From a virus, in the IMG/VR virus record IMGVR_UViG_3300020418_000040, positions 1 through 26,540 of that record: a stretch of 26,540 bases of DNA; one strand, given 5' to 3'. The notes under the pieces were generated by a model that ran no database searches, was not told where the DNA came from, and saw nothing but the letters and a program-made list of their open reading frames with translations. How positions within the stretch are numbered: position 1 is the stretch's first letter; every line of letters begins with the position of its first letter. This document shows positions 1 to 21,827 of the stretch, in pieces. A program made the position numbers and the translations under genes.

Positions 1-258
1 AGATTTTTTAACGACTTATTGGGCACATCAATCGAAGATTCGTTGTTTGAAACGAATTTAAATGACATTTCATCATTTTTAGAAAGAGAAATCACTGTTT
101 TACTCAAAAACTTTGAACCAAGAATCAACTTAACAAACGTATTAATTGATTCTTTGATTGATTCACATGAATTACAGATAAGAATTGAGTATGAAATTAC
201 AGGATTACCTTTTCCAACACAAAATATCGAATTTTTACTTCAACCGACTAGGATATAA
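1..258 (+). CDS. 25: Baseplate wedge subunit gp25 (5'-truncated)
   Basis: This is the C-terminal 85 residues of a T4 gp25-type baseplate wedge protein; the reading frame is open to the left edge, so the true start lies outside the window. T4 gp25 is about 132 residues and belongs to the lysozyme-like wedge family related to gpW/TssE. It joins gp6 and gp53 in the inner wedge and helps trigger sheath contraction. The stretch ER-I-----NFEPRI aligns with T4 ERNIESAVRNYEPRI, and the following beta strands and the C-terminal IEFLLQP fit the family end. A TTG at 19 is not a credible start because homology continues upstream of it. The stop TAA overlaps the ATG of gene 6 by one base (TAATG), which suggests coupled translation. 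Identification is by remembered family sequence, not a search. Confidence 0.9.
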   Translation, partial: RFFNDLLGTSIEDSLFETNLNDISSFLEREITVLLKNFEPRINLTNVLIDSLIDSHELQIRIEYEITGLPFPTQNIEFLLQPTRI

Positions 259-2141
259 TGTCATTTACACAGTTTACTAACCTTGATTTTAATACTTTAA
301 GGGCTCAAATCAAAGATTATTTGAGATCAAACTCAAATTTTTCCGATTTTGATTTTGAGGGGTCTAACTTTTCGATTTTAATTGATACTTTAGCATATAA
401 CTCTTATATAACTGCCTATAATACGAACATGGCTGTCAATGAAGCATTCATTGATAGTGCTACTCTACGTGAAAATGTCGTATCACTGGCAAGAAACATT
501 GGTTATGTGCCCAGATCGAAGAAATCTGCGACTGCAGTAGTGAATTTTTCAGTAAATGTACCAACTGGAGCAAATATTGTTAAATTGAACAGAGGTTTAG
601 TTGCATTAGGATCAATTCAAGGTGGAAATTATGTATTTTCAATTCCAGATGACATTACAGTAACACCAAATAGTCAAGGAATCGCAAATTTTAGCAATAT
701 TTCAATTTATGAAGGTAATTATTTGACAAAAACCTTTGTTGTAGACAGTTCACAAACAAATCAAAGATATATTTTACCAAATGCAAACATTGATACCTCT
801 TCAATTCGTGTTGAAGTTGAAGAAAAAGGATCAACTGAGGTTTATAATGCATACACTAACATTTTTGATGTAAATGCCGAGTCTAGGCTATTTCTTTTCC
901 AAGAAGTTGATGATGAACGATATCAAATTATGTTTGGTGATGACGTTTTGGGTCGAAAACCAGCAAACGGAGCTACAATAAGAGTTAGTTACATCATCAC
1001 CAATGGAACTGATGGTAATAATGCTGCTAACTTTAACTTTGCTGGAAGATTAACATATATTGTTGGTGGTGTAGACAGGGATATAACAAGTGGTATATCC
1101 ATTCTAACGACCACACAGAGGTCAGAAAATGGTGATTCGATAGAATCTGTGGATAACATTAAATACCTTGCTCCAAGGGTCTATGCGTCACAGTACAGAG
1201 CAGTAACACCGAATGATTATAAGAGTTTGATACCTTTTTTATATCCAAATGTTGACTCTGTAAGTGCATATGGTGGAGAAGAACTTGATCCACCAGAATT
1301 TGGAAAAGTTTTCATTACTGTTAAACCAAAAAATGGTGAAGTTTTATCTGCTGTAGTCAAAGATTCAATTAAAAATGATTTAAAGAAATATACGGTGGCT
1401 GGTATCAAACAAGAATTTCTTGATTTAAAGTATTTGTATGTTGAATTTAATTCAACTGTTGCATATGATTCAGGATTTGTTTCTGATAAGTTAAATTTAC
1501 AATCTCGAATATTATCCTCAATTGAGACTTATGCAAAATCATCAGACATTAACTCTTTTGGTGGAAGATTGAAATATAGTAAGTTACTTGCTCAAATTGA
1601 CCGAGTTGATACTGGAATAACTTCAAATATCACTACATTAATAATGAGAAGAGATTTAAAACCATCATATAACCAAATTGCAACTTATGAGATATGTTAT
1701 GGTAATAGGTTTCATGCTGATTTAGAGGGATTTAATATTCGTTCCTCTGCTTTTAAGATTGAAGGGGTTGATGGAGACGTATACTTAACAGATTTTCCAA
1801 ATAGTGATCAAACTACAGGAATAATCAAATTTTTTACACTTGATGGTGAAATTATCACTTATATCAACAATAATGCAGGAATTGTAGATTATATAAGAGG
1901 TGAAATAAATTTATTCCCAATCAATATAACATCTACAACTATATCTGAAAAAGTTGAAATTGAAATTACTCCAGAATCTAATGATATTGTAGCAAAAGAG
2001 AATCTCTATATCGTGCTAGATACTAAGGGAAACAGTCAACTTAATTTATTAGAAGATGTTCTTGTTTCTGGTTCCAATATTTCTGGAACAAACTATACAC
2101 CACCATCTAGTTTTATTAGCAACAAAAAATATACAAGATAA
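258..2141 (+). CDS. 6: Baseplate wedge subunit gp6 (baseplate J-like)
   Basis: A 627-residue homologue of T4 gp6 (660 residues), the main structural protein of the inner baseplate ring, which forms dimers that hold the wedges together. The N terminus is very characteristic of cyanophage gp6: FTNLDFN, then F-GSNFSILIDTLAYN at about residues 34-48, then a run around residues 60-85 with NEAFIDSATLRENV and NIGYVPRSKKSA. The middle part (FGDDVLGRKPANGATI near residues 227-242, followed by a beta-rich section) matches the baseplate J-like fold. The start ATG overlaps the stop of gene 25 and has an AGGA four bases upstream, at 250-253. It is followed after three bases by the giant gene, matching the 6-7-8 order of T4. 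Nothing looks truncated. Confidence 0.95.
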   Translation: MSFTQFTNLDFNTLRAQIKDYLRSNSNFSDFDFEGSNFSILIDTLAYNSYITAYNTNMAVNEAFIDSATLRENVVSLARNIGYVPRSKKSATAVVNFSVNVPTGANIVKLNRGLVALGSIQGGNYVFSIPDDITVTPNSQGIANFSNISIYEGNYLTKTFVVDSSQTNQRYILPNANIDTSSIRVEVEEKGSTEVYNAYTNIFDVNAESRLFLFQEVDDERYQIMFGDDVLGRKPANGATIRVSYIITNGTDGNNAANFNFAGRLTYIVGGVDRDITSGISILTTTQRSENGDSIESVDNIKYLAPRVYASQYRAVTPNDYKSLIPFLYPNVDSVSAYGGEELDPPEFGKVFITVKPKNGEVLSAVVKDSIKNDLKKYTVAGIKQEFLDLKYLYVEFNSTVAYDSGFVSDKLNLQSRILSSIETYAKSSDINSFGGRLKYSKLLAQIDRVDTGITSNITTLIMRRDLKPSYNQIATYEICYGNRFHADLEGFNIRSSAFKIEGVDGDVYLTDFPNSDQTTGIIKFFTLDGEIITYINNNAGIVDYIRGEINLFPINITSTTISEKVEIEITPESNDIVAKENLYIVLDTKGNSQLNLLEDVLVSGSNISGTNYTPPSSFISNKKYTR

Positions 2142-2144
2142 CAG

Positions 2145-5100
2145 ATGTCAGATAAAAAAGTTAAAATATCGAATATTCTTGGTAGTCAAATACCAGATTT
2201 TATACAAGTAGACAACCCACTATTCAAGGAGTTTTTGACTCAATACTATGCATCTGAAGAACGTGAGTATGGAACCACTTACTTAGCTGATAATATTTCA
2301 TCATTGAAGAAAATTTCAACTGTTGCTGATATTTCTTTAGTTGAAAAACAAACTATTCCTGCACCAAACAGCACAACTCCAGAATCTCCTGTTGTTTTAG
2401 CATCTTTAACGTATGCATTTGATGATGTAATTAATGTCAACCAAACCACAGGATTTCCAGATACATATGGTCTTTTAAAAATTGATAATGAAATTATCAC
2501 ATATACTGGAAAAACTGCAACTTCATTTACTGGGTGTATTCGTGGATTTAGTGGAATATCTGCAATTGAAACAGCTGGAGCTCCTGAGTTTTTAACCTTT
2601 AGTGACACTAATGCTGCAGCACACAATGCAAATTCGTTAGTAGTTAATCTAAGTTTTCTTTTTGTAACTGAATTCTACAAAAAGTTTAGAAAACACTTTT
2701 TACCTGGTTTAGAGGGAAAAGATTTTGCATATGGACTAAATGTAGAAAATATTTTATCAAGAGCAAGAGACTTTTATAGTTCAAAAGGAACAGATACCTC
2801 TCTGAAAATTTTATTTCAAGTTTTGTATGGAGAGCAAGTTGATATTATCAAACCTTTTAATCAGACTTTTTTACCATCAGATGCAGAATGGGACGTAACT
2901 GATGATATTATTGTAGAAAATATAAGTGGCAATCCTTTAAATTTAGTTGGTCTTAAAATATATCAAGACTCGTTTACAAATCCAACTGCAAGTGGAGCTG
3001 TAGCGAATGTAGAAGCAATATATTTAAAAAGTAAAAAATATTTTAAAATTTCTTTTTCAAAGGGAACAATAATTAACAAATTTAAAGTTTCCACAAAAAC
3101 AAAAGTAGTTGGAACTGCATCAACTACAGAAGTTACGACTGTAGACTCTACAGTTGGATTTGGTGACTCTGGTAATTTTTATTACTTAAACGCAGATAAC
3201 AGATATACATTAGCAACTTACACGTCTAAATCAAATAATCAGTTTTTTGGGTGCACTGGCATTTCTACTACTTTAATAGAGTCTGATCCTATTATTGATA
3301 CTAATTTCATTTATGGATATGAAAATAATGATCTAACAAAGATCTGTACAATGAGAACAACGGGATCAATTTCTGGAGTTTCAGATAATGCTAATGTTAC
3401 TAAGTATTTTGATATTGGTGACACGATAGGAGTTAAACATTTAGGTGAAAAAGTTGATATTGATGATCCAAAATTTAATACTTGGTTCTATAACAACTTA
3501 TCATATATTGATGTTATTAATCATGATGGAAGTGAAGCATTTACAACTGAAGTAAATCATTTTTTAAAAAAAGGAGATAGAGTAGACATAATTTTAAAAT
3601 CTAACGGATCATTGCAAGCTGAAAACGTAGAAGTTAAAGATACAAACACACCAAATAAATTTAGCATAGAAGTTACGAATGCACCAGGCATTTTTGGAGA
3701 TTATCAAATAAGAAAAAAACTTAGTTACATTGATAGTAGATTTGGAATTACGTCTTTATTGGGTAATATTCAAAATTCGTTCGTTGATAATGAAAAAAAT
3801 ACATATATTTCTTTTTCTGGTTATCCATCTTTTGAAACAACAAATACTAATCGATCAAAAACATTTAATTCATCGTCTGGAGTTAGCACAAACCAATATA
3901 CAGTTAATATAAATGATCATAACTTTATAAATGGAGAGAAAGTTTATCTTAACTTAGGAGAAGACTTAACATATTCATCTGGATCTGGAATAACTGGTAT
4001 CAGCACTGGATTTTACTTCATTAATGTTGTTGATTCAAATACAATCAAATTTGCTACAACTCCACTAAATTTATACAGAGGATTATTAGAAATTCCTCGA
4101 TACGTTGGAACTGTAAACGATAATACTACAGGTATTAATACTATATTTAAAGATGTAATTCATACGATTACTCCTGCAAATTTGTATGAAGGTGAAAAAT
4201 TACAAAACCAAGATTATTTTAAGAGAATATATAAAAATCCAAAAATATCAACGAAAAAGACAAATATTAGAGGGCCAATTGGTGTTTCCTTAAATGGAAT
4301 CGAATATCATTCTTCAATTTCAAAAGATTCTTTATATTATGGACAAATAAATGAAATTGAAGTTTTAAATTTTGGGGAAGATTATAATGTTATTAATCCA
4401 CCTACATTATCTATTGTAGATCTCTCTGGTAGTGGGTGTATTGGTTATGGAAATTTTTCTGGTGCTATAACAGATATTATAGTAACCAATAAAGGGTTTG
4501 ACTACACTACAACACCTTCAGTTACTATATCTGGGGGAAATGGAACAGGTGCAAGATGTGAAGCAAAGATGAGAGGATTTACTCATAGTAAGGCATATAC
4601 TGATTTTAATGTAGATTTAGCAACAAATTCATTTGATGGAGAACATAGATTTTTAGAAGGTGAAGAAGTTGTTTATACTGCAACAGGAAATCCTATAGGG
4701 ATTGATACTGGTGTTAATGTTGGTTTTAATACTGATTTATTATCTTCAGGTGCATCCTACTTTATTTTAAAGAGAACAGACTCAGCTTTTTCACTAACAA
4801 TAAAAAAAGAAGATGCTATTGCAGGAATTAATACAATATTTTTCATTCAAAATGGAAATGGAACACATATCTTTAGATCTAAGAAAAAAAGAAAAATAAT
4901 TGATAGAATAGAGGTTATTAATTCTGGATCTTTATATTCAAATAGAAAAGTAAACATATCATCTCAACAATATCCTACTCCTAATAGGAGTAATTTATTT
5001 AAAACATTTGTTGGTATAAACACTTTTAATAATTACATTTATGCTAAGAATCATAATTTTAAAAATGGTGATAATGTAGAATATAGTTGCACTGGTACTG

Positions 5101-8100
5101 TTATCTCTGGATTATCAACATCTAATGTTTATAAAATTACAGTTATTGATGATGATAAATTTAAATTAAGTGCAGCTGGGACTATATCTACAATTAATAG
5201 TACAAATTATGATAGAAAGATATATGAAAGTTTGAGTAGTGTTGGAGTTGGAACACATACGTTCAAATATCCAGAAATTAAAGTTAATATCAGTAATGAT
5301 GTTGCGATAGGGTTAACATCAACTATACCTGATTACTATATGGGATCTGCAGAAGCAATAGTTAAAGGTAAAGTTGAAAATGTATTCATAGAAAATGGAG
5401 GAGTTGGTTATGGTGTAACTAATATTATAAACTATTCTCGACAACCAAACATATCATTCCTAACAGGTAAAGATGCTTCATTAAATCCCATAATTGCTAA
5501 TGGGAATGTGGTTAATGTTGTAATTTCCAATTCTGGAACAGAATATACATCACCACCAACTTTGGAGGTTGTCGGATTAGGAACTGGTGTAGGATCTGTT
5601 GCTGAATTGAAAGCAATAGTATCTGATGGTAAAATTACAAATGTTGAAATTATTGAACAAGGATCTGGATATGATCCAGCCAAAACATTTATAAAAATTA
5701 CTCCAAGTGGAAGAGATGCGGTATTTTCAACACAAATTTATAACTGGAGGATAAACTCTGTAGAAAGATATAAAACTTCGTTAACAAATAATAATCAATT
5801 ACTACAAGTAAATTCTGAATTAAAATACAAAGGTAATAAAATTTGCTCTTTTTATCCTCCAACAAAATACAGAGAGTTATTAAGTGATACTAATGACATA
5901 ACTTCTCATTCAAAAATAATTGGATGGGCTTATGATGGAAATCCAATTTATGGCCCGATCAGTAACAATAACGTTGGAACTGGATTAACTTTTATTCAAT
6001 CAAGTTATAACATTTCTCCAATAAATGATATTAATTATAGGCCTCCACAAACCATATATCCTAATGGATATTTTATTGAAGATTACATTTATGATGAAAG
6101 TGGAGATTTAGATGAGTATAATGGTAAATTTACTACAACTCCAGAATATCCAAATGGAATATATGCGTATTTTTCAACCATAGATAAATTTAATTTTGAA
6201 CCAACTTTTCCATATACTACAATTAAACATCGTAATCATACTGATAGTTTTAATTACAGTTCCTCTGTTAGTCAATCAGATTTAACCATTAATAGTGGAA
6301 ATTATAAGAGAAATGTAACTCATTTAGGTTTGAATGAAACTTTTAGAAATTATCCATTGTTAGCAGATCCTCTTGCGTCTCAAGTTAAATTAAAAGTTGA
6401 TGGAGTAAAATCATCAGATATAACAGGAATATCAATAGATGAGTCTGGAGAAGATTATAAAGTAAATGACCAAATAAACTTTACAGATCCAACTATATCA
6501 GCTAGAGTTAATGAGGTTTTAGGTAAAGGTATAGTTTCAGTAGCAACCACAAACACAGTGGTTAATAACTTAAAGTTTTCTGTGTCTGATGAAAAAATTA
6601 CTGGTTTATCAACCATCCCTCACGGATTATTTGATGGTGATATGGTGGAAATTACTGGAATATCATCAACAAAATATAAAAATATTGAAGGAGTTAGAAT
6701 TATCGGTGTATCCACTGTTACTTCTTCAATATCCACCTCTATGGCAACTGTCAACGCTGGAATTACAACGTTTATAACTTTTTCTGATCCCACTATTAGT
6801 AGAAAATTTAAAGTTAATGATACTGTCATAATTGGAACAGAGCAACTTTTAATTATTGATCATGATGACATTAATAATAAGTATAGAGTAATTAGAGGAC
6901 ATAATTCAACCACTCCAACAGATCATCTCTCAGGGGCAGTGGTAACAAGATCAGAAACAGAATTTACATATAATATTAATAAAAAATTAGAAAATAAAAA
7001 TATAGAATTTCCAAAAATTCAATATTTTGAAGCTGAAAAATCAGTTGGTATTGGAACTAGTTTTACTAATATGACAGTGGGATTTGCTGGTGTTACTCCA
7101 ATTAAAAGATCTGTTCCACCAAAAGCAATATTTTTACCAAATCATAAATTTAAGAGTGGTGATGAATTATCTCTTGTCTCTCTTGGATCTACAATTATTG
7201 CATCTAGAAATTTGGATTTATCAAATCAATTTGATTTAAGTTCATTTGATAAATTATTTTGTGTAAAAATTAATGATGAATTTATTGGACTTTCAACAGA
7301 AAAGGTAGGATTTAGCACAAGTAACGTATTCTTTAAACAAATTACAACTGGAATTTCAACTGGATCAGATAATGTCAAATTAGAGTTAATAACAAATAAC
7401 ATTACTGGTCAATTGAGAAAAATAAATGGAACAGTAACTGTTGCCACTGCTACAACTACAGGACAACAACATGGATTATCTGTTGGTGATAAGTTTAAGT
7501 TAGATATAAAATCTAATAAAACTCAAATTTTTAATCTTAAGTATAATGAAACTATAAGAAAGTTAGTTGTTAATCCTGTTTCATTTGGATCAACTGATAT
7601 TGGAGTAGGAACTACATTATCAACAATAACAATTAATGATCATGATTTCGAAACAGGAGATGTAATTGTTTACAATTCTTCGACTCCAGCTACACCTCTG
7701 GTTAATGATGGAGTTTATTATGTTATTAAAGACTCATTACATACGATAAGGTTATCTGAAAATTCTTATGATATACTAACATTTCCATACAACTATATTG
7801 GAATAGGAACAACTGGTGGTGGGAATCATGAAATTTCAAAAATAAATCCAAAATTAAATTTATATAAAAATGGTACAGCAGAACTTATAACTTCAGATTC
7901 TAGTTTGACTGATTATGAAATCGAATTTTACAATGATTCTAATTTCATATCAAAATATAACACTAATTTAATTTCCAGAAATGGTGTTAACGGTGATGGG
8001 GATGCTGCAACTAAAATAAGTGTTTCCGTTGGTAGTTCATTATCAAATAAATTCTACTATAGAGTAGTAGGAAAAGGTAATAATTTTATAAAAACAATAT

Positions 8101-11100
8101 CCCATTTTGCTAATGTAGATGTTCCAGATCATTCTCAAATTCAAGTTTTAGATTCGAAGTTTAATACTGAGTATAAAGTAATTAGTATTGGTACTAGTAC
8201 TTTTACTTTTAATCCAACAGGAATCGCAGAAACTACTTCATATACTACAACAGGATTTTCATCTGCATTCTATTCTACTAAATCTACAACAGAACTTGGT
8301 GGAATACATTCAATCAATATTTTAAATAAAGGTTCTGAGGTATCTACCTTACCAATTTTAACATCAATCGGAACAACAACAGGAAAAAATGCTGTTTTGA
8401 GTATTGAAACGGATCAAATTGGAGAAATTGATGGTACAAAAGCAATTATTCAAGGAATAGAATTTACTCCAGACAAAACTTTACAACCTAAAGCTGAAAG
8501 TAACTTAATTTTAGAATTAAAAAATGTATTTACATTAAAATCCATAGGAGTGACCACTGGAGGTATTGAATATACAACTCCACCAAATGTAACAGTGGTT
8601 GGAAATTCCAATATAGTTGCTCAAACAACTTTAGCTGGGTCTGCTGTTAAGGATGTGGATATTTTACAGAATGATACTGGAATTAATCAAGATGTCAGAA
8701 TTGTACCAATTAACAATTCAAACGGAATTGTCGTAAAGGGGGCAACAACGCTTAATGAAATAGTTACGCTAGAATTAAGAGCACCAATTCCAGAAACAGG
8801 ATCTGGTGACAGTGGATTTTATAATCAAGGAAGTGATTTTCCGTTTAAAAAAGATGATTTAATATTTGTAGAAAATGTAAAAACATTAAATGATGGAGAT
8901 GGATTTAATTCAAGTGATTATAATTATACTTATTTCGCTGTTACTGGTGTAAACACCACAGGTGGTTTAGAAACAGTTTCATATTCAATAAGTGGTATTG
9001 GATCAACTGGAGGAACATATCAACAAGATAATAATTTTGGAAGAGTTATCAAAAAAGATCACTTAGCAACTTTTAATGCAGAATTTAACAAAGTTTCATT
9101 TTTTGATAATGAAAGTGTTTCAGTTTTGGGAAGAGATGTTTCTGGAGTTGTTGCAGAAAATGGCTGGGATCCAGAGTCTGAAACTTTAAAAGTATTTAAT
9201 GTAAATGGTGAATTTTTAGAAAATGACGTAATCTTGGGATCACAAAGTAATAACAAATCTACAGTAGAAAATATATTTAAATTTGATTTTGATTTGAATG
9301 TAGATGGTGCAGTAGAAATTGAAAACGGTTGGAAAAAAGAAACTGGTAAATTAAATTCCAGTATTCAGAATTTGCATGACAATGATTATTATCAAAGATT
9401 TTCATATTCAATTAAAGGGTCTGTTCCATTTTTAACTTGGAAAAACTCTGTTGATAGTCTAAATCATGTTGCTGGATTTAAAAATTTCTGTAATTTAGGT
9501 ATTCATTCAGTGGGTACTCATTCATTAAAGTCAGATTCATTATTAGAATTGGATGTTGAGATTGATCAGGAAGCTTCTGTTCATGACAAATTTTATTATG
9601 ATTTAGTAAGTGAAAATACAACTGATTCTAGTTTGTCAAAATTAGTTTCATTTGATTCCAAAATAATAACTGATTATAACGAGTCAATAACAAATAAAGC
9701 ATTATTAATAGATGATATTAGTTCTCAATTTACTGGAATTGTGACTTCTACTGGTGGAGGTGTAATTGGAACAACAAGTTTTGATATATTCACTGATAGT
9801 GAATCTCTATTCCATAAAGTCTTTGATCCAGCCACTGGAATCAATACGTCCACTAATTTACTTACAATAACAAAACATGAATTTAACACTGGAGAAGAAT
9901 TGATTTATAAACCACAAGTTGGTCAATCTGCGATTGTCATTGAGTCCACAGATGTTCCAGGTATCGGAGTTACTACTTTATTGCCATCAACTGTTTTTGC
10001 TATCAAAGAGGATGTTGATTCAATTAAAGTTGCAGTTGCAGAAACTTTTGCAAATGCAGGTGTAGGAGTAACATTCATAAACGTTACTGGAATTGGAAAT
10101 ACTCATACTTTATCAGTTCCATCTGAAAATGCTACAATTAGAAGTTTAATTACTATTGATAATATAATTCAAAGTCCATTAGGAATAACAACTGCTATTT
10201 CTGTTGGATTAGCAAGCACTGTTGGTGTAGGAAGTACTTCTATTTTCTTAAATGATGTTTCTGAAATAGCAGGTAAGTCTTTACTTAGAATTGAAGATGA
10301 AATATTTAAAGTCAATTTAGTTGGAGTGGGTTCAACTAATTCTTTAAGTGTTGATAGAGGTCAAATGGGAACAGTAGCAGCTGCTCATACAGTTGGTGCT
10401 GCAGTAACTGTTTTGAAAGGTGATTATAGAATTAATGAAGGGAGATTATATTTTTCAGAGGCACCATATGGGCCAACTGGAGGAATATCAACATTTTCAA
10501 CATTTACGGGTAGAGCATATTATAGATTAAATTACAATACAAACAAAATATTAGACGATATATCTGATAGATTTGATGGTTCAACTGATAAGTTTAATTT
10601 AACATCAAATGGAGTTCAATCAACAGGAATAAACAGTAGTTTTGGTGCAATTTTAATTAATAATATTTTCCAAAAACCTTATCTTGGAATCGTTGGTGAT
10701 TCAAGTTTAACTGATTATACTTTAGTTGGTACAGGACAAACAATTGATTTTACAGGAACTACTGCCAACAAGGATTTACCAAGAGGTGGTATAATTAATG
10801 AATTTGATGTTGGAATAGGGAGTGGATACCAGTTCCCAAGAAAAGCAATATTCAGTGCTGTAGTTTCTGCTGCTGGAACAATACAATCAGTTGGAATTGA
10901 AACTGGAGGTGCTGGTTATCTATCTAATCCTTTAGTGTCAATTGGTTCAACTATTGGAGTTGGTGCTGCATTTACAGCTTTTGTCACTGCTGGTGTTGTT
11001 ACTTCAATTACAATCAACAATGCAGGTGCTGGATATACTAATACAGGAATATCTACTGGATTAAACTTTATAACTGTTGCACCACCTAGTCCTTACAAAA

Positions 11101-12584
11101 ATATCCCTCTAACTGGTGGAAGTGGGTCTGGTGCATCTATCGATGTTGTTGTTGGAACTGGTGGTAGTATTATATCATTTGATATGGCAAATCGTGGCAT
11201 AGGTTATGAAATCGGAGATAACTTAGAATTATCCACAATACCTTTCCAAGTTGGTATAGGAACTAGTGCTTTTAATATAACAGTTAAAAACAAATATCAA
11301 GATAAATTTGCAGGATGGTGTTTTGGTCAATTATTAGAATTAGATGATTTTAGTATTCAATTTAATGGATTTAGAAAATCATTCTTAATAACAAGAACAA
11401 CCACATCAAAAGAGTATTATAGTATAGTTGCTCAGAAAGGATCAGGAATTATACTTCAAAATAATCTCTTAATATTCATAAATGATGTATTACAAACTCC
11501 AGGTAAAGATTACACATTTAATGGTGGAACAAGGATAACATTTAATGAGGCACCAAAAGCTGGCAGTAAATTTAGAATGTATTTTTATGCTGGATCAACA
11601 TCTGATTTTGATGAAATTGATGTTGATGAAACTATAAAACCTGGTGATGAGTTAAGATTACAAAAATATCTTGGTGTTTCAGAGCAAGATAATAGAGTCA
11701 TCTATGCATTAATTGCTGCTGACACTGTAGAGACACAAACTTATTCTGGAGTTGGTATATCAACTGATACAACTTTTTTAAGACCAACAGTTTGGAGAAA
11801 ACAAACTCAAGACTTAACTATAGATGGATTAAGAATATCAAAAGAAAGAAATTACTTAGAACCAAAAATATTACCAACTTCTGGAATTATAAAATCTGTT
11901 TTACCTACGGATACCAGAATATACATTAAAGACTCTTGGTCTTTTACAGTTGTTGATGGAATCGAGGGTAACTTAAATAATATATCCATAGTTGGTATTG
12001 AGTCGGCAACACCAAAAGTCGAGTCAATTAATAATGTAACTTATAATGGTGACTATGGTGATATTATTGGAATAGGAACTCAAACAACTGGTATTAATAC
12101 CACTGGGCCTGCTTTATTCTTTGATCTTAAACCCGATTCTACAATTTTTCCTGCTAATTTCTTATCTCCAACATCTAAAGAGAGACAAAAAACTGGAATT
12201 GAGACAGGTGACTACTTTGTAATTCAAAACACATCTATCGGAAGTAGCACTAGTGGAGTCACTGGAATCAAAACCACACTTTCAGGCCCAGAAATTATTG
12301 GTGTTGGAACTAATTTCTTAGATAATGTTTATTTTGCTGAACATATAGTTGGAATTGGACAATCTATTGTAAGAGTATTCTCAAACGTACAATCAATTTC
12401 TGGAATTAATACAGTTGGACTCACAACTTATGCTAGAGGTGGTAAATATAGTTGGGGTGCAGTAAATGTATCCAGAGGATTGAATTCCAAATCTTTTGAT
12501 TTCTTTAATCAAAATGGAGTTTCAGGTATAGAAACATCAGCTCAGGTGATAAGGTCTGCACCTATAAAAACAAGTTATACATAA
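2145..12584 (+). CDS. Giant mosaic virion structural protein in gp7 position (YHYH-type domain, beta repeats)
   Basis: A single uninterrupted frame of 3479 residues between genes 6 and 8, where T4 has gene 7 (1032 residues). I see no sequence likeness to T4 gp7. The N-terminal ~275 residues resemble the start of large cyanophage structural proteins: an ISNILGSQIPDFI opening, a LLKIDNEIITYTG / CIRGFSG module (about 96-169), and FYSSKGT--SLKILFQVLYGE (about 210-232), a pattern seen in phage baseplate proteins. The rest is a mosaic. H-x-F-x-x-G-D/E modules lie near residues 590, 832, 968, 1491, 1664, 1773, 1830 and 2577. GxGY-type beta repeats lie near 740-809, 1085-1201, 2059-2192 and 2917-3049. 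A degenerate YHYH-like domain is at about 1192-1376. An IFINDVLQTPGKDY module, with KAGSKFRMYFY after it, is at about 3109-3174. No transmembrane segment or signal peptide is evident. The inferred role is a baseplate-periphery or wedge protein. The structural call is firm, the exact role is not. Confidence 0.8.
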   Translation: MSDKKVKISNILGSQIPDFIQVDNPLFKEFLTQYYASEEREYGTTYLADNISSLKKISTVADISLVEKQTIPAPNSTTPESPVVLASLTYAFDDVINVNQTTGFPDTYGLLKIDNEIITYTGKTATSFTGCIRGFSGISAIETAGAPEFLTFSDTNAAAHNANSLVVNLSFLFVTEFYKKFRKHFLPGLEGKDFAYGLNVENILSRARDFYSSKGTDTSLKILFQVLYGEQVDIIKPFNQTFLPSDAEWDVTDDIIVENISGNPLNLVGLKIYQDSFTNPTASGAVANVEAIYLKSKKYFKISFSKGTIINKFKVSTKTKVVGTASTTEVTTVDSTVGFGDSGNFYYLNADNRYTLATYTSKSNNQFFGCTGISTTLIESDPIIDTNFIYGYENNDLTKICTMRTTGSISGVSDNANVTKYFDIGDTIGVKHLGEKVDIDDPKFNTWFYNNLSYIDVINHDGSEAFTTEVNHFLKKGDRVDIILKSNGSLQAENVEVKDTNTPNKFSIEVTNAPGIFGDYQIRKKLSYIDSRFGITSLLGNIQNSFVDNEKNTYISFSGYPSFETTNTNRSKTFNSSSGVSTNQYTVNINDHNFINGEKVYLNLGEDLTYSSGSGITGISTGFYFINVVDSNTIKFATTPLNLYRGLLEIPRYVGTVNDNTTGINTIFKDVIHTITPANLYEGEKLQNQDYFKRIYKNPKISTKKTNIRGPIGVSLNGIEYHSSISKDSLYYGQINEIEVLNFGEDYNVINPPTLSIVDLSGSGCIGYGNFSGAITDIIVTNKGFDYTTTPSVTISGGNGTGARCEAKMRGFTHSKAYTDFNVDLATNSFDGEHRFLEGEEVVYTATGNPIGIDTGVNVGFNTDLLSSGASYFILKRTDSAFSLTIKKEDAIAGINTIFFIQNGNGTHIFRSKKKRKIIDRIEVINSGSLYSNRKVNISSQQYPTPNRSNLFKTFVGINTFNNYIYAKNHNFKNGDNVEYSCTGTVISGLSTSNVYKITVIDDDKFKLSAAGTISTINSTNYDRKIYESLSSVGVGTHTFKYPEIKVNISNDVAIGLTSTIPDYYMGSAEAIVKGKVENVFIENGGVGYGVTNIINYSRQPNISFLTGKDASLNPIIANGNVVNVVISNSGTEYTSPPTLEVVGLGTGVGSVAELKAIVSDGKITNVEIIEQGSGYDPAKTFIKITPSGRDAVFSTQIYNWRINSVERYKTSLTNNNQLLQVNSELKYKGNKICSFYPPTKYRELLSDTNDITSHSKIIGWAYDGNPIYGPISNNNVGTGLTFIQSSYNISPINDINYRPPQTIYPNGYFIEDYIYDESGDLDEYNGKFTTTPEYPNGIYAYFSTIDKFNFEPTFPYTTIKHRNHTDSFNYSSSVSQSDLTINSGNYKRNVTHLGLNETFRNYPLLADPLASQVKLKVDGVKSSDITGISIDESGEDYKVNDQINFTDPTISARVNEVLGKGIVSVATTNTVVNNLKFSVSDEKITGLSTIPHGLFDGDMVEITGISSTKYKNIEGVRIIGVSTVTSSISTSMATVNAGITTFITFSDPTISRKFKVNDTVIIGTEQLLIIDHDDINNKYRVIRGHNSTTPTDHLSGAVVTRSETEFTYNINKKLENKNIEFPKIQYFEAEKSVGIGTSFTNMTVGFAGVTPIKRSVPPKAIFLPNHKFKSGDELSLVSLGSTIIASRNLDLSNQFDLSSFDKLFCVKINDEFIGLSTEKVGFSTSNVFFKQITTGISTGSDNVKLELITNNITGQLRKINGTVTVATATTTGQQHGLSVGDKFKLDIKSNKTQIFNLKYNETIRKLVVNPVSFGSTDIGVGTTLSTITINDHDFETGDVIVYNSSTPATPLVNDGVYYVIKDSLHTIRLSENSYDILTFPYNYIGIGTTGGGNHEISKINPKLNLYKNGTAELITSDSSLTDYEIEFYNDSNFISKYNTNLISRNGVNGDGDAATKISVSVGSSLSNKFYYRVVGKGNNFIKTISHFANVDVPDHSQIQVLDSKFNTEYKVISIGTSTFTFNPTGIAETTSYTTTGFSSAFYSTKSTTELGGIHSINILNKGSEVSTLPILTSIGTTTGKNAVLSIETDQIGEIDGTKAIIQGIEFTPDKTLQPKAESNLILELKNVFTLKSIGVTTGGIEYTTPPNVTVVGNSNIVAQTTLAGSAVKDVDILQNDTGINQDVRIVPINNSNGIVVKGATTLNEIVTLELRAPIPETGSGDSGFYNQGSDFPFKKDDLIFVENVKTLNDGDGFNSSDYNYTYFAVTGVNTTGGLETVSYSISGIGSTGGTYQQDNNFGRVIKKDHLATFNAEFNKVSFFDNESVSVLGRDVSGVVAENGWDPESETLKVFNVNGEFLENDVILGSQSNNKSTVENIFKFDFDLNVDGAVEIENGWKKETGKLNSSIQNLHDNDYYQRFSYSIKGSVPFLTWKNSVDSLNHVAGFKNFCNLGIHSVGTHSLKSDSLLELDVEIDQEASVHDKFYYDLVSENTTDSSLSKLVSFDSKIITDYNESITNKALLIDDISSQFTGIVTSTGGGVIGTTSFDIFTDSESLFHKVFDPATGINTSTNLLTITKHEFNTGEELIYKPQVGQSAIVIESTDVPGIGVTTLLPSTVFAIKEDVDSIKVAVAETFANAGVGVTFINVTGIGNTHTLSVPSENATIRSLITIDNIIQSPLGITTAISVGLASTVGVGSTSIFLNDVSEIAGKSLLRIEDEIFKVNLVGVGSTNSLSVDRGQMGTVAAAHTVGAAVTVLKGDYRINEGRLYFSEAPYGPTGGISTFSTFTGRAYYRLNYNTNKILDDISDRFDGSTDKFNLTSNGVQSTGINSSFGAILINNIFQKPYLGIVGDSSLTDYTLVGTGQTIDFTGTTANKDLPRGGIINEFDVGIGSGYQFPRKAIFSAVVSAAGTIQSVGIETGGAGYLSNPLVSIGSTIGVGAAFTAFVTAGVVTSITINNAGAGYTNTGISTGLNFITVAPPSPYKNIPLTGGSGSGASIDVVVGTGGSIISFDMANRGIGYEIGDNLELSTIPFQVGIGTSAFNITVKNKYQDKFAGWCFGQLLELDDFSIQFNGFRKSFLITRTTTSKEYYSIVAQKGSGIILQNNLLIFINDVLQTPGKDYTFNGGTRITFNEAPKAGSKFRMYFYAGSTSDFDEIDVDETIKPGDELRLQKYLGVSEQDNRVIYALIAADTVETQTYSGVGISTDTTFLRPTVWRKQTQDLTIDGLRISKERNYLEPKILPTSGIIKSVLPTDTRIYIKDSWSFTVVDGIEGNLNNISIVGIESATPKVESINNVTYNGDYGDIIGIGTQTTGINTTGPALFFDLKPDSTIFPANFLSPTSKERQKTGIETGDYFVIQNTSIGSSTSGVTGIKTTLSGPEIIGVGTNFLDNVYFAEHIVGIGQSIVRVFSNVQSISGINTVGLTTYARGGKYSWGAVNVSRGLNSKSFDFFNQNGVSGIETSAQVIRSAPIKTSYT
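5718..6270 (+). other. Degenerate YHYH-type domain inside the giant structural protein
   Basis: Within the 3479-residue protein (about residues 1192-1376) the order of motifs matches YHYH-family domains: IIGWAYDGNPIYGP (about 1257-1270), then GDLDEYNGKF (about 1319-1328), TPEYPNG, then GIYAYFST where the family has a Y-H-Y-H-type stretch, then FPYTT. Both histidines of the naming motif are replaced (Y-A-Y-F), and the family cysteine of L-D-E-C-N-G is tyrosine. The fold is therefore probably kept while any metal-dependent function is probably lost. The family is of unknown function and is recurrent in marine phage virion proteins. Confidence 0.75.
10895..11290 (+). repeat. GxGY-type beta-repeat block near the C-terminal part of the giant protein
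   Basis: Three tandem protein-level repeats in about residues 2917-3049: GGAGYLSNPLVSIGS, NAGAGYTNTGISTG and NRGIGYEIGDNLEL. They are separated by G-x-G-A-x-F/S-x-x-x-V strands (IGVGAAFTAFV, GSGSGASIDVVV). The pattern is I-x-x-V/I-x-x-x-x-x-G-x-G-Y, then T/x-x-P-x-V-x-I, then G-x-G-x-G-A-x-A. The units are diverged in DNA, so this is a protein repeat and not a nucleotide repeat. The same family occurs in gp8, in the 2446-residue protein and in gp14. Confidence 0.7.
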
Positions 12585-12588
12585 CAGG

Positions 12589-12596
12589 TATAAATA
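12589..12596 (+). promoter_or_regulatory. T4-type late promoter TATAAATA upstream of gene 8
   Basis: An exact TATAAATA lies in the 32-base gap between the giant gene and gene 8, with 20 bases to the ATG. This is the -10 consensus recognised in T4 by RNA polymerase carrying gp55 with the gp45 clamp. I found ATAAATA on the + strand only here and at 21821, both times in a gene gap, which argues against chance in this AT-rich DNA. Confidence 0.85.
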
Positions 12597-12616: not shown

Positions 12617-14248
12617 ATGCCCGCAATAATCACTGACCAGTACCGTATATTGAATGCCGAAACTTTTGTAGACAGTTTTGTGGGTATTGGCACAACTGGA
12701 AATAATAACTATTTTACTTTTTTAGGACATCCAGATCCAACTAATCTTACGGATGCGATTGGATATGGAGATGCGAGTTGGGGAACAGAAGCACCTAACC
12801 CAATAGACAACTTTGACCAAGAGAATAGATATCACGATAGTATGTTATTTTTGAAAAAAATCACTTCTAGTGATGTTCGAAGAGTCATACCTCGTATTAA
12901 TTGGCAAAGTGGAACAATTTATGAAATGTATAGAAATAACTATAGTGCCACTAATCGAACATCTCAAACTAGTTCTTCTAGTTTATATGGTTCAAATTAT
13001 TATGTTGTAACTTCTGAGTTTAAAGTTTATCTATGCATTAATAACGGTTCATCTCCAACTACTCCAAATGGAACCACTTCTAAAGTCGAACCAACTCATA
13101 CATCTACAACAGTTCCCGAACAGGACACAACTGGAAATACAGATGATTACCAATGGAAATATCTTTATACTATTTCTCCTTCTGATATTGTTAAATTTGT
13201 AACATCTTCATATATACCACTTCCACAAAAATGGGGAGATACAACAAATGCAAATATAAAAGATGCAGCAGTAGATGGTAAATTGGAATCAATAATAATT
13301 AAACGAGCAGGAACAGCTACAATTAATGGTGTAACTACAGGAGAACAAACTGTAACCGTTCCTATAATTGGAGACGGATCAGATGGTAAGGCTATAGTTA
13401 CTGTAAATGAAGGTGTAGTAACAAGAATAAAATTAGCAGATACTAATTCCACAGCATATACGTATGCAGCAGTTAGATTTGCTGAAGGTTCGCCCGTAGA
13501 TGGAAAAACATTAACTGTTGGTCAGGGATCTGATGAACCTCAGTTTGAAGTGATAATACCACCAAAAGGTGGACATGGTGCTGATATATATCGTGAATTA
13601 GGTGGATTTAGAGTTATGGTTTACTCTAAATTTGATAATAATATCAATGATAAAGCAGACTACATTGTTGGAAATGATTTTTCTCGTGTTGGAATAATTA
13701 GAGATCCCCTAGAATTTGGTGGAACCTCTGTTCTAAATAAGAGGACTGCAACTTCTTTAGGTGCACTAAAATTAAAAATTCCTAGTGGATCTAGCACAGT
13801 TTTATCTAATGTTGTTTACCCAAAAAACACAAAGATAACCCAATACTCAAATGATGCTACCATTGGTATTGGAACTGCGATTGGATATGTTGCTTCATGG
13901 GATTCTAATACTGGAGTCTTAAGATATTATCAACCAGTTGGTTTTTCAACTCAATCTGTTTATGGTTATGAACTTCGTAATTTTGTAGGAGTGGCAACTG
14001 CGGTTACTGGTGCAACTCATATTATTCCTGGTCAAACTGTTGATAATTTAGAGGTTGATACAACATTTAGTGCTGAATCAATTACTATTGGTCAAAGAAG
14101 TGAATCTTTAGGTCATGCATTTGTTAACGGAGTTGCAAATCCAGAAATTAAAAAATTCTCTGGTGAGATAATATATATTGATAACAGAGCACCAGTCACA
14201 AGGACAGCTTCGCAAAAGGAAGAAGTAAAAATCGTAATCGAGTTCTAA
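12617..14248 (+). CDS. 8: Baseplate wedge subunit gp8, expanded
   Basis: A 543-residue homologue of T4 gp8 (334 residues), a dimeric baseplate wedge protein that contacts gp6, gp7 and gp10. Both ends match T4. The N-terminal part has FTFLG-PDP and a V-R-V-I-P-R-I-N-W segment (T4 AVIPRRDW), then YQWKYLYTI-PSDI (T4 YVWEYLFEIPPDV). The C terminus SGEIIYIDNRAPV--T--QKEEVKI aligns with T4 SGEMIYMENRPPI. About 200 extra residues sit between these parts. A GxGY-like beta repeat is at about 220-294, and a module with GYVASWDSNTGVL is at about 421-445. The start is the first ATG after the late promoter; there is no clear Shine-Dalgarno sequence. Four bases separate its stop from the next gene. Confidence 0.93.
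   Translation: MPAIITDQYRILNAETFVDSFVGIGTTGNNNYFTFLGHPDPTNLTDAIGYGDASWGTEAPNPIDNFDQENRYHDSMLFLKKITSSDVRRVIPRINWQSGTIYEMYRNNYSATNRTSQTSSSSLYGSNYYVVTSEFKVYLCINNGSSPTTPNGTTSKVEPTHTSTTVPEQDTTGNTDDYQWKYLYTISPSDIVKFVTSSYIPLPQKWGDTTNANIKDAAVDGKLESIIIKRAGTATINGVTTGEQTVTVPIIGDGSDGKAIVTVNEGVVTRIKLADTNSTAYTYAAVRFAEGSPVDGKTLTVGQGSDEPQFEVIIPPKGGHGADIYRELGGFRVMVYSKFDNNINDKADYIVGNDFSRVGIIRDPLEFGGTSVLNKRTATSLGALKLKIPSGSSTVLSNVVYPKNTKITQYSNDATIGIGTAIGYVASWDSNTGVLRYYQPVGFSTQSVYGYELRNFVGVATAVTGATHIIPGQTVDNLEVDTTFSAESITIGQRSESLGHAFVNGVANPEIKKFSGEIIYIDNRAPVTRTASQKEEVKIVIEF
13276..13500 (+). repeat. GxGY-like beta-repeat insert in gp8
   Basis: Residues about 220-294 of gp8 follow the same strand pattern as the repeats of the giant protein: KLESIIIKRAGTATINGV, then VTVPIIGDGSDGKAIVTVNEG, then VVTRIKLADTNSTAYTYA. 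This segment has no counterpart in T4 gp8 as I remember it. It falls between the conserved N-terminal domain and the conserved C-terminal strand. Confidence 0.6.
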
Positions 14249-14252
14249 TCAG

Positions 14253-17200
14253 ATGCCACAAAATACTAATCTAAACGTTTCTCCATATTTTGATGATTTT
14301 AATGAAAATAAAAATTATCATAAAGTATTGTTTAAACCTGGTTTTCCAGTTCAAGCAAGAGAGTTAACAACACTACAGTCAATATTACAAAATCAAGTTG
14401 AGAAGTTTGGAAGACACTTTTTCAAAGAAGGTTCAATGGTCATACCTGGTGGAACTTTCTATGATCCCAACTATTTTGCGGTAAAAATAGATCCCAATTT
14501 TTTAAATATACCAGTTAATAGTTACACAAAATTTTTAGTAGATAACAATATAAAAATACAAGGAGAAACATCTGGTGTTGAAGCCACAGTGGTCAATAGA
14601 TTGACTGCACCCGAATCAATTGATGGATTTGACACTTTATACTTAAAGTATTCTAAATCTGGATCAGACGGGACTACAAGGACATTTCAGGATGGTGAAA
14701 ATTTAATAACTCTTTCAGGAATTGCATTTGAAAACACAAGTATTGCAGCAAATAGTCAATTTGCAAGATGTATTGTTGCAAATTCAACTTCCACAGGATC
14801 TTCATTTTCTATAAATGAAGGTGTATATTTTGTTCGTGGATTTTTTGTAAAAACAATAGCATCCACAGTAATTTTAGATCAATATTCAAATTCTCCAAGT
14901 TATAGAGTTGGATTTTTAATAAAAGAAGAAAAAACATCAGCATCTTCAACCAATTCTGATTTATATGATAATGCTCTAGGTTTTTCAAATGAAGCTGCAC
15001 CTGGTGCAGATAGGTTGAAAATTTCTGTATCTCTTCATAAAAAATCTTTAACTGATATTAATGATAAAGATTTTGTTGAGTTAATGAGAGTCGTTAATGG
15101 TTCTGTCAAAGAGATGGTAACTGCGACTGAGTATAATATCTTTGCGAAAGAATTAGCAAGAAGGACATATGACGAATCTGGTGATTATTATGTGAAACCA
15201 TTTTCTATAGATGTTAAAGAGTCTTTAAATGATAGAATTGGTAATAGAGGAATATATTTTGACACTCAACAGACTCAAAATGGAAATACTCCTTCAGATG
15301 ATATCATTAGTCTTCAGGTTTCTTCAGGAAAGGCGTATGTAAGGGGTTATGAGATCGATAAAGTTGGATCAACGTCCATTGATGTCCTTAAACCAAGAAC
15401 AACTAAATTAGAGGAAAATATAAGTATTCCAATAAGAATTGGAAAGTCAATGAACATAACAAATGTTCTTGGTTCTCCAGCTATTGGATTTAATGCATCA
15501 TCATTAAAATTATTGAATAGAAGATTACTTGATACTAGGCAACGTGATACTGGTGCAGCAGTCATAGGTGATGTAAGACCCTATGATTTTATGCAGAGAA
15601 CTTCGGCAGGAATTGCAGTCACAACTTTTGATTTAAGATTTTATGATATGCAATTGTATACAGTTCTTACTGTAGCAAATACAATTACTACTGGTGTAGA
15701 TTCTCATGTAAAAGGAAAATTTAGCGGAGCTGTTGGATATGTAGTTACAGCAGTTAGTGGAACTTCAATCACACTTCGTGATGTTATTGGAGAGTTTCAG
15801 ATAAACGAACCATTGATAGTTAACGGTCTTGAAATAGGTAATAATATTACAACGATTGTAGATAATAGTTTTGAAGATATAAAAGCAGTTCATAGCACTG
15901 CTGGAGTCAGTGCAGGTACAACTAGTTTTTCTGCAGACTTAGTATTAGATCGTGATAAAGAAATATTCAGAGCTGGGGAGGAAATTAGTATTGTTTCTGG
16001 ATTGCTTAAAAATCCATCTGTTAAGGATTACAGATCTTTAGTTAAAGAAAATGATATTATTGGTTTTGCTGGCAATGTTAATAGAACAGATATTACTTTT
16101 AACCGAGTAAGTTCTATTGGTGTTGGTGGAACTAATTTTCAAATGGAAGCAGTTGCTACTGTTCCTGGTGTATGTGATGGTGTTATTGGTAACATAACAC
16201 CTAATCATGTAACAGTTAAAATTCCAACATTAACTGTATCTGACGATCCTGGTTTTAGAGTTAAATTGGCAGATGATTTTGTTTCATCAATGAATGTATT
16301 AGATAGTTCATATATTGTAAGAAAGCAGATAACTAATGGTAGTTTTACAAACTTTCAGGCTGTCTTTAATATTACTGATCTTACTGATCTTAACACAGAT
16401 GATCTATTCTTTGAACCATTCACCCAAACAAATTATGCTTTAGAGGTTGATGCAGGTACAGGTGATGCATTTATGCAAAAACTAGATAGTCCAATGGTAA
16501 ACGTATCTACAAATCTTAAAACTGTTACCATAAGTGGATTATCGAAAGAAACTGGTGATGCAACACTAACAGCAACTATTAGAAGAAGCAGTTTATCATC
16601 AAAAGAAAAATCAATTGTAAGATGTAGTGATTTAGTGATAACAAAATCAGAATCAACTGGATCTGGTATTGGAACTACTTCTCTTAATGATGGTTTAACA
16701 TATAGTCAATATTATGGAACAAGAGTTCAAGATGAGGAAATATCATTAAATGTTCCAGAGGTTTCTCGTGTATTAGCAATATTTGAATCAAATGATACAA
16801 ACAATCCAGATTTACCAACTCTAATTGCAACTGATGCAACAGCAACATTTACTGGAAATGTTACCGTGGGAGAGCAATTTATTGGTGGTACTTCAGGTGC
16901 TGTAGCTCGTGTTGTTTCTGTTGTGTCTGGAACTTCGATTTCGTTTGTCTACGAGAATCAAAATACTTTTGAGGTAGGAGAGAATATATCACTTAAAACA
17001 TCTGGAATATTCGCATCATTAACAAGTGTTCTGCCTGGTGATCGAAATTTGCTTAACAATTATACTTTAGATGACGGTCAAAGATTAGAATTTGCAGATT
17101 TTTCTCGAATTGTAAGAAAGTCAGATGCAGAAAAACCAACTCGCAAATTGAGAATTATTTTTGACTACTTACTTAATAACGAAACTGCAGGAACTATTGA

Positions 17201-20200
17201 AACAGTTAATAGTTATAACACATTAAGTTATAGTAAAGATATACCATTAGTTTTTGATAGATTCGCCTCCGATTTTATTGATTTTAGACCTAGAGTTACA
17301 CCATTTACTGCAAATAATAAATCACCGTTTTCATTTGGATCTAGATCTTTTTCTTCAACACAGTCTGAAGTAGTGGCATCTAATGAAACTCTTGTAGTTG
17401 ATTATTCTTATTATCAAGGTAGAGTTGATAGATTATATCTAACAAAGGATGGTTTCTTTACAGTAAAAGAAGGAACTCCATCAAGACTTCCCAAATTACC
17501 CCTACCAAATGAAGAGGCTTTTGAGGTTGCTTCGATTTCATATCCTCCTTATGTTCGCAATGCGAATCAAGAAGTTACTGTAAAAACAGTAAGACATAAG
17601 AGATATACGATGAAAGATATCGGTAGTCTTGAGCATAGAATTAAAAATTTAGAAAATTATACAACTTTATCGTTGTTAGAAACAGACACTAAAAACTTAT
17701 CAATTAAAGATCCAAATACTGGACTAGATAAGTTCAAATCTGGTTTTTTTGTTGATAACTTTACTGATCACACAATTCATAATTTAAAAGGAGAATCTAA
17801 ATTTGATATCGATCTTGTTAGAGGTGAATGTAGACCAAGATCAACAGAAAGAAATGTTCCCCTAATACATGAAACAGTTAGCACACTTGGAAATCCAGTT
17901 AATACAGATTATAGATGGAGTGAAGATTTTGTTGATGGAAATATTACAAGAAATGGCCCCGCTTTAATTCTTAATCATACAGATGTAGAATTTTTAACTC
18001 AACCATTTGCAACAAGAACGGAAAACTTAAATCCTTTCCATATAGCATTATTTGCAGGAACAATACAACTAAATCCAGAATCAGATTTTTGGGTTGAGGA
18101 AGTTCCTCTTGGAGCTCCAGCAGTCTTTAACATCGACACCGCATATAATGCACTTGCAGAACTATTAGATGTTGAAGATCGTGAGAATGGTGGAATGGCA
18201 TCTAGTTTCTGGAACTCTCATGAAATTACTTGGAATGGTAGAGACAGTGCAACCTTCCTTGGAGAAGAAATTACTGATGTTGAAGTTTTATCATCCTCAA
18301 CTGAACAAATTCATCAAGCAGCTGGTCATGGAACCGAAGTATTAGAAGTAACAAATCAAACAATTCAAAATACAATTACACAAACTTTCTCAGAAAGTGG
18401 AATTGAAAGAGAATTTGGTCTTCAATTGACACCAAATGATCAAGTGATTGATTTGGGTAATAAAGTTCTTGGAATAGACATTTTATATAATGTTAGATCT
18501 AGGAACGTTGAAGTTGTGGGAAAGAGGTTAAAACCAAATACAAGATATTATGTATTCATGGAGAATGTAGATATGACAGCATATGCTGTCCCTAAACTTC
18601 TTCCAGTTGTTATGACAAGAGGATCATTCTCTACTGGTGATTTAATGTATAGCGTGGAAAATCCACCAGGAACAGCTGGCAGACCAAGTATCCATTTTAG
18701 ACTCACTAGTTCAAATCATAAGATAGGCCCATTTAATGCACCCACAGAAACATATACAACAAACCCATATGATTCATCATCTTTACCTGACACGTACTCT
18801 AGTACAAGCACAATATTAAATATTGACACTGGTGGATTAGCATTCTTTACTGAACCAGATCATATTGGATATGTTAATAAGGGAATGAACTTAGTTAATG
18901 CTAATGGTGATGCAGAGGCAACTGTTAGTGATTTAAGTTTAGTAAGTGATGAAAAAGGAGATTTAATATTCTCATTACATATACCTGACCCAACTGTAGA
19001 AAGTAGTCCTTTATTTACTACTGGAAACAATACAATTAGAATTACTACAAGTCCAACTAATGCAAGCATATTAGATCCTGGTGAAAGTTCTGCGGAAACA
19101 GAGTATCTTGCAACTGGTTATCAAACAAATACACAAGAACAAACTCTTAATATTCGAACTCCTCAAATTGAAACATTACAAATCGGTTCAGATCAACCAG
19201 TTACAAGAATATTTACAGAGGATGTGGTTCAAGATCCTGTGAATGTTCAAACATCGGAAAGAATAGATTACTATGATCCACTTGCACAATCATTCTTAGT
19301 TGAAAGAGACCAATATCAAGATGGTGTCTTTATAACAGGTGGTGAGTTGTTCTTTAAAACCAAAGATAATGAAGTTCCTGTCACTGTTCAATTAAGAACA
19401 ATGAGAGATGGTTCACCAACAACTACCATTCTACCATTTGGTGAGGTGCAAATTGATCCAGCACAAGTAAATGCTTCTGATGATCCAACAGTGGCCACTA
19501 ATTTTAGATTTAATACGCCAGTTTATCTACAAAGTGGATATGAATATGCGTTAGTTTTAGTTGCACCAACTGAAAAATATCTTACATATATTACTAGAAT
19601 GGGTGAAGAGGATTTAATTCTACAATCTGTAAGTAATAGACAACCATATCTTGGATCATTATTTAAATCACAGAACAGTTCTACTTGGACACCAAGTCAA
19701 TTAGAAGATCTTAAATTTAAACTCAATAAGGCACAATTTGTAACTAATACACCATCCAGTGTACTACTTCGTAATAGTGAATTGCAATTACAAAGAATTA
19801 GAAAAACTAATCCAGTTACTGCTTTTTCAAAGAGACTAACCATTGGAATAGGAGAAACTACAATATCATTTACTTCTGGAGCTGAAGTTACACAAGGAAC
19901 AAATACTGGTAGAGTATTTTCATCTGGTGGAAAAATAACTTCAGGAACTTCAAAAATTGAGGTAGCTGCCAACACTGGAATTGGACTCACACCAACAAGT
20001 GGTAGTTTTACATATTCTGGAATTGGATTTACTACTTTAACTGGATCTGGATCTGGAGCAGTGGCAGCTGTTACTGTTAATGGTGGTGCTGTAACTTCTG
20101 GTAATGTTAATATAACTAATGGTGGTACTGGATATCAAGTAGGTGATTTGTTACTTATGAACTCTGTTGGATTCAACGGTTCTGGAGTAAGAGCAGTTGT

Positions 20201-21819: not shown

Positions 21820-21827
21820 TATAAATA
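21820..21827 (+). promoter_or_regulatory. T4-type late promoter TATAAATA upstream of the fibre-gene cluster
   Basis: An exact TATAAATA lies in the 39-base gap between the 74-residue and 112-residue genes, 29 bases before the ATG at 21857. It is the second of only two exact matches that I found. It would drive the fibre-like genes and, by read-through, genes 13 and 14. Confidence 0.85.

Follow-up and report, generated by a model that had tools for sequence, protein, structure and literature searches.

Cyanophages and pelagiphages are among the most abundant viruses. The baseplate wedge protein gp7 of phage T4 (1,032 aa; structures 5IV5/5HX2; PHROG 964) is encoded between the genes for gp6 and gp8 and contains helices, a KG motif, domain V and an HP.GF block, as well as ~638 N-terminal residues and domain VI. 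Minimal counterparts without large inserts are gp17 of Vibrio phage XM1, P2 gpI and TssG of the T6SS, which share the wedge place and the (gp6-like)2-(gp7-like)1 stoichiometry (PMC10457771, PMC6300606). One chain of XM1 gp17 or TssG, together with two gp6-like chains, forms a core bundle and a trifurcation (PMC10457771, PMC6300606), and in XM1 gp17, a gp7 orthologue of only 242 aa, loops 80-106 and 201-242 hold spikes (PMC10457771). The place of these minimal proteins beside T4 gp7 is taken from these publications; for the protein described below, Tail_P2_I (PF09684) gave no match in searches with single sequences, and the P2 gpI relatives are all ~99% identical, so that they yield no useful gpI profile.

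Giant gp7 proteins (PHROG 2885) are already known from the corresponding locus of cyanophages, hundreds of which have them annotated as gp7 or 'baseplate wedge initiator'. Lengths within the family are 1,016 (Pelagibacter phage HTVC008M), 1,937, 3,007, 3,884, 4,067, 4,156, 5,195, 6,619 and 7,312 aa (the last being P-SSM4, from annotated coordinates). A published account holds instead that gp7 is absent and that VrlC replaces it (PMC7029224).

The window analysed here, i.e. an entire IMG/VR fragment of 26,540 bases (IMGVR_UViG_3300020418_000040), encodes a further member of PHROG 2885. A single unbroken ORF (2145-12584, plus strand) specifies a protein of 3,479 aa, 3.4 times the length of T4 gp7, as the initial annotation had reported. 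The profile phrog_2885 ('baseplate wedge subunit') matches its residues 1-2530 with 2318 bits, and phrog_964 (T4-type gp7) does not match it. The gene order is T4-like: the end of a gp25-like gene (assigned by position and partial at the window start), a gp6-like wedge gene whose product is the expected gp7 partner (258-2141, +; PF21379/Pfam Gp6 domains; phrog_219, E 2e-192), the giant ORF, a gp8-like wedge gene (12617-14248, +; PF09215, E 1e-13; phrog_438), a 2,446-aa gene (14253-21593, +; PF16075, DUF4815) in the 'VrlC' position of S-SM2, phiM19 and HTVC008M, small structural genes and two neck genes. The 2,446-aa gene is distinct from the gp7 gene. The source, a marine T4-like phage, is cyanophage-like, since the window gp6 shares 56% identity with its counterpart in Synechococcus phage S-SSM7.

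The group to which the window belongs is uncultured, and its close relatives occur in IMG/VR only. Their complete ORFs measure 3,456-3,674 residues, counted stop to stop, and their divergence is greatest at codon position 3 (33-42%, versus 12-22% at positions 1+2); the giant ORF is therefore one real gene and not an accident of assembly. Its first 1,000 residues match 467 phage records. Over this stretch the gp7s of P-SSM2 (5,195 aa), S-SM2 (4,156 aa), S-CAM9 (3,884 aa) and S-SSM7 (3,007 aa), encoded at the same locus, show ~28-34% identity to the window protein, and both of the core blocks described below are similarly placed (in P-SSM2 a motif search located the first block only). They differ from the window protein only in detail, i.e. 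in length, in the C-terminal extension and in this low identity. As a gene, the ORF is thus an ordinary member of a known giant gp7 family, and its moderate interest lies in the split-core architecture and in the corrected view of gp7 that follows from it. The suggestion that so large a baseplate attachment had not been described for T4 is true of T4, but giants of this kind already bear the name gp7 in many cyanophages.

Sites of the T4/S-PM2-type late promoter (TATAAATA) occur only twice in the window, at 12589-12596 and 21820-21827 (+), the first ~20 bases upstream of the gp8-like gene and the second ~30 bases upstream of a 112-aa ORF. By chance 5.5 such sites would be expected, more than the 2 observed.

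The initial annotation described the N-terminal section as head-like and saw no sequence likeness to T4 gp7; on both points our results differ, and the section was found to be baseplate-wedge core. The motif quoted there, FYSSKGT--SLKILFQVLYG, has a counterpart at T4 gp7 734-752 (FYSTKGIEASYKFLFKVLY), and the profile matches are significant. Comparison by hhalign of eleven N termini with seven T4-type gp7 proteins aligned window residues 203-315 with T4 727-822 (prob 96.7, E 4e-10). Anchored on Sinorhizobium phage phiM19, in which the first insert is missing, the alignment begins at window residue 5 and T4 gp7 639 and covers T4 gp7 639-788 (E 2.9e-11); overall, residues ~5-315 align with T4 gp7 ~639-822. 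When all PDB sequences were searched with an HMM of 66 N termini, the two gp7 sequences came top (E 2e-6 and 4e-6; next match 0.56). A phmmer search of the PDB sequences with the full protein returned nothing to E 1, gp7 being reached by profiles only.

The fold search proposed in the initial annotation pointed to the same protein. An AF2 model of residues 1-345, of middling quality (pLDDT 71.5, pTM 0.46), had a sole Foldseek match at or below 1e-3 among 350,542 PDB chains, namely 5iv5_BJ (E 1.3e-4, prob 0.97), which we take to be gp7 because 5iv5 holds gp7 and the length of 1,004 residues fits. The superposition is loose rather than a rigid match (TM 0.16), which is no surprise for an extended chain of several domains whose partners were not part of the model. 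The VIA-align list, which mostly pairs the beta domain at 68-172 with unrelated beta domains at Z 6-8.5 (within the usual background), does not contain gp7 and is uninformative either way. An AF2 model of a compact full-length pelagiphage homologue was unusable (pLDDT 36).

The protein opens with helices at residues 7-70 (2163-2354, +), the counterpart of the T4 gp7 helical domain (~639-689) according to AF2 (helices 8-70) and the phiM19-anchored profile. Between these and the KG-motif helices sits a first insertion of ~100 residues, a beta domain at residues 72-170 (2358-2654, +; AF2 strands 96-168; VIA-align rows 68-172), which T4 and phiM19 lack. There follow the core helices at residues 172-228 (2658-2828, +), in which DFYSSKGTDTSLKILFQVLYG corresponds to FESRSYDFYSTKGIEASYKFLFKVLYNEEVEI of T4 gp7 727-758 by PDB hmmsearch and hhalign, and a domain V-like part at residues 229-320 (2829-3104, +; T4 gp7 ~759-822). 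Domain V is recognised only by profile alignment, which reaches T4 822 (Pfam Gp7_5th spans 766-861 in T4); PF21427 itself does not match the window protein. None of the Pfam gp7 domain models was significant; only PF23786 ('Baseplate_wedge') appeared, at E 0.025, and it found no match in two related contigs. Domain VI (PF21456) had no Pfam match in the window protein, 300-residue slices included. The first ~638 residues of T4 gp7 (fn3-like and following domains) are absent, the family starting at T4 ~639.

Several close relatives (loci L059-L067; e.g. L063:3035-4540) have ~100 extra residues before the KG motif, which in L063-L065 stands at 308-313 vs 211; these residues apparently represent one more module at the site of the first insertion. 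The gp7 of S-SZBM1 (6,619 aa; L309:21249-41108, reverse strand) has ~500 more residues at this point: window residue 124 aligns to 110 and window residue 126 to 623, and matches to the GxGYt module described below lie there.

A second gp7 core block was recognised far downstream, at residues 2405-2455 (DNDYYQRFSYSIKGSVPFLTWKNSVDSLNHVAGFKNF; 9357-9509, +). It aligns with T4 gp7 ~855-905 (863-895 in the feature match) at an hhalign score of 39.1 (E 6e-5), over a short alignment of 33 columns; the best of 100 column-shuffled T4 profiles scored 23.8, and the T4 profile in reverse 14.2. An earlier comparison with seven sequences had given E 0.007 (prob 5), and the wider alignment brought this to 6e-5. 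The region is conserved in 217 phage records, and conservation along the window protein is raised at both blocks (80-89% at 1-240; 76% at 2401-2460 vs 63-71% alongside). In T4 gp7, domain V leads directly into YYVMKIKSNLPSSRWKSDVIRFVHPVGFGF, whereas the window equivalent, DYYQRFSYSIKGSVPFLTWKNSVDSLNHVAGFKNF, lies ~2,080 residues further on. Because the second core block, with the HP.GF motif, stands at ~2405-2455, the ~2,080 residues that part it from domain V (~330-2400; 3132-9344, +) have the appearance of an insert within gp7; the two blocks are adjacent in T4 and far apart in nearly all cyanophage-type relatives.

Almost every cyanophage-type locus that was examined has 2,030-2,310 residues from the KG motif to the HP.GF block; the distance is ~570 for pelagiphages and ~850 for phiM19. 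Both blocks are also present in compact relatives, i.e. in phiM19 (1,007 aa) and in HTVC008M I899_gp055 (1,016 aa), which is encoded at the same locus as the window protein, has its core blocks at 202 and 773, and carries an insert of ~450-500 residues only. In S-CREM2 and phiM19 the second block lies close to the C-terminal end. Comparisons of sequence and fold identify residues ~1-320 (minus the insert at 72-170) and ~2405-2455 as the gp7 wedge-core blocks, ordered as in T4 ~639-905. The picture of an N-terminal gp7 followed by one large appendage therefore stands as regards the N-terminal core, but has to be revised for the second core block and for the missing ~638 residues of T4. Conversely, T4 gp7 is without the ~100-, ~2,080- and ~1,020-residue additions of the window protein. 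We found no earlier description of a split gp7 core in the open-licence literature.

These matches bear directly on the proposal that true gp7 is absent and that its role has been taken by a convergent window protein or by VrlC, the product of the gene after gp8. This proposal has the statement in PMC7029224 behind it, and T4 gp7 used as a single tblastn query brought up no cyanophage among the leading organisms listed. It does not fit, however, with the matches to gp7, which are significant in the profile, PDB-sequence and fold searches alike and keep their order along the chain. Moreover, the VrlC-annotated genes of S-SM2, phiM19 and HTVC008M lie after gp8, and none of them is matched by the gp7 profile. 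As the VrlC genes follow gp8 and a split gp7 core is recognised between gp6 and gp8, the view in PMC7029224 is contradicted. An unrelated replacement of gp7 is strongly disfavoured, and we regard it as very improbable.

A second gp7 was sought in complete relatives, since the window record is only a 26.5-kb fragment. In seven of ten complete relatives (searched together with T4) the T4 gp7 profile matched only the gene between gp6 and gp8 (E 2e-10 to 3e-3, on the KG motif), one of them showing an extra non-significant match inside the same gene; in the other three there was no match at all. The N-terminal profile of the family found the gp6-gp8 gene in all 11 genomes, T4 gp7 included (E 2e-9). 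Its sole match outside gp7 genes is a 615-aa neighbour in S-SZBM1 (positions 49-120), in the first-insert region. The gp7 homologue elsewhere in the genome, which the initial annotation had named as evidence against a gp7 role for the N terminus, thus did not appear in these genomes, and that role is well supported by homology beyond position alone. The S-SSM7 record contains two giant genes named gp7, the second of which (L106:25090-32979) is in the VrlC position.

The initial annotation spoke of thousands of residues of beta modules. Two repeated modules and a YHYH-type domain were found; the fold prediction covers residues 1-345 only. The modules, A in 7-8 copies and B in 7, come from an iterated self-HMM search, which was trained on itself and so gives inflated E-values; blastp lends the repeats independent support (E 2e-7 to 1e-4). 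Module B (H.F..Gd.v.y type) occupies residues 588-647, 830-896, 968-1018, 1490-1537, 1663-1727 and 1829-1879 (all within 3906-7781, +), with a seventh copy at 2574-2639 (9864-10061, +). Module A (GxGYt type) forms two clusters of three copies, at residues 1061-1187 (5325-5705, +) and 2896-3030 (10830-11234, +). The YHYH-type domain lies at residues 1244-1347 (5874-6185, +; PF14240, E 2e-21, 77 bits vs a cut-off of 25); its namesake motif reads YAYF here, and YAYF or FAYF in 36/36 sequences, never YHYH. It was the only significant Pfam match when the protein was searched in 300-residue slices, as had been proposed. Lsm_C, Glyoxalase_7, TMP_3 and others were discarded as below the cut-off. Behind the second core block comes a C-terminal extension of ~1,020 residues (2456-3479; 9510-12581, +) for which no T4 counterpart was found.

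Module A is common to gp7, the neck protein gp14 and the 2,446-aa gene in the VrlC position of the same genome (window gp14 vs gp7: blastp E 2e-7), which suggests that modules are shuffled between tail genes. The gp14-like neck gene (24869-26314) has four GxGYt copies at residues 216-374. In HTVC008M, I899_gp055 (33435-36485), which sits between gp6 and gp8, is annotated 'head closure Hc2', like PHROG 3465. This name looks wrong and is probably derived from the shared GxGYt module; misleading database names of this kind for gp7 seem to stem from the repeat module common to the neck protein.

Such modules, together with the YHYH-type domain, might also be read as parts of an adhesin or fibre, i.e. 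the gp7 core would be merely an anchor, and the insert and tail mainly a host-recognition device fused to the wedge. The hypervariable stretch at 601-660 (the minimum of conservation along the protein, 38% identity), the big differences in size among phages and the spike-holding loops of XM1 gp17 (PMC10457771) agree with this reading. Conservation is, however, good over most of the insert and throughout 2701-3240 (with 1-240, the most conserved part of the protein), and the insert length is near constant within the group, more as in a structural part than in a receptor binder that varies; moreover, such phages have fibre genes annotated separately. A mainly host-recognising function is therefore possible but rather unlikely.

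Homologues of the window protein are present in virions, in line with the virion role initially proposed. S-CREM2 ORF122, a virion protein of 1,937 aa, was detected by mass spectrometry (91 unique peptides, 27% coverage; PMC10665884, Table 3), as was S-SZBM1_208 (6,619 aa; 71 peptides; PMC9146016, Table 1). Each of them shows homology to the window protein (best blastp E 9e-30 and 2e-44, respectively) and carries the second gp7 block. With ~2,080 residues between two core blocks, the giant chain might conceivably be made as a precursor and cleaved as assembly proceeds, so that its insert or its C-terminal section would end up as separate virion proteins. The published proteomes are peptide counts and not chain lengths, and are neutral on this point; we consider such cleavage very improbable.

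In our opinion, the phage is a T4-like myovirus of the cyanophage type and the window protein is very probably its gp7 orthologue, with a split core and with an insert and extension that would form a peripheral layer of the baseplate. By analogy with the T4, XM1 and T6SS structures, the N-terminal helices would pack with two gp6 chains into the core bundle, while the KG-motif helices and domain V would lie in the trifurcation that carries the peripheral proteins of the wedge. Since the chain exits the core after domain V and re-enters it at ~2405, the ~2,080-residue insert would be a huge outward loop; both this insert and that at 72-170 are predicted to leave the core at loops and to point outward. 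Together with the C-terminal extension, the large insert may build the peripheral layer, which could take over what in T4 falls to the N-terminal domains of gp7 and to gp10-gp12, for example the attachment of fibres or spikes and the relay of the signal for contraction.

We see about equal grounds for and against a broader scheme, in which a split gp7 wedge core carries a peripheral layer of more than 2,000 residues and conserved size, the T4 periphery arose from a different, N-terminal addition, and insertion at this locus, from 1,016 to 7,312 residues, is the way in which baseplate complexity evolves. The placed core blocks offer cryo-EM workers anchor points for a very large chain, correct the published claim of a missing gp7, and define two sites where insertions appear to enlarge the baseplate of T4-like phages. 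A further observation concerns IMG/VR contig 2974739009 (L087, L088), which has two T4-type gp7 loci 13-14 kb apart, each 82% identical to the C-terminal part of T4 gp7; this is either a duplication or an assembly artefact.
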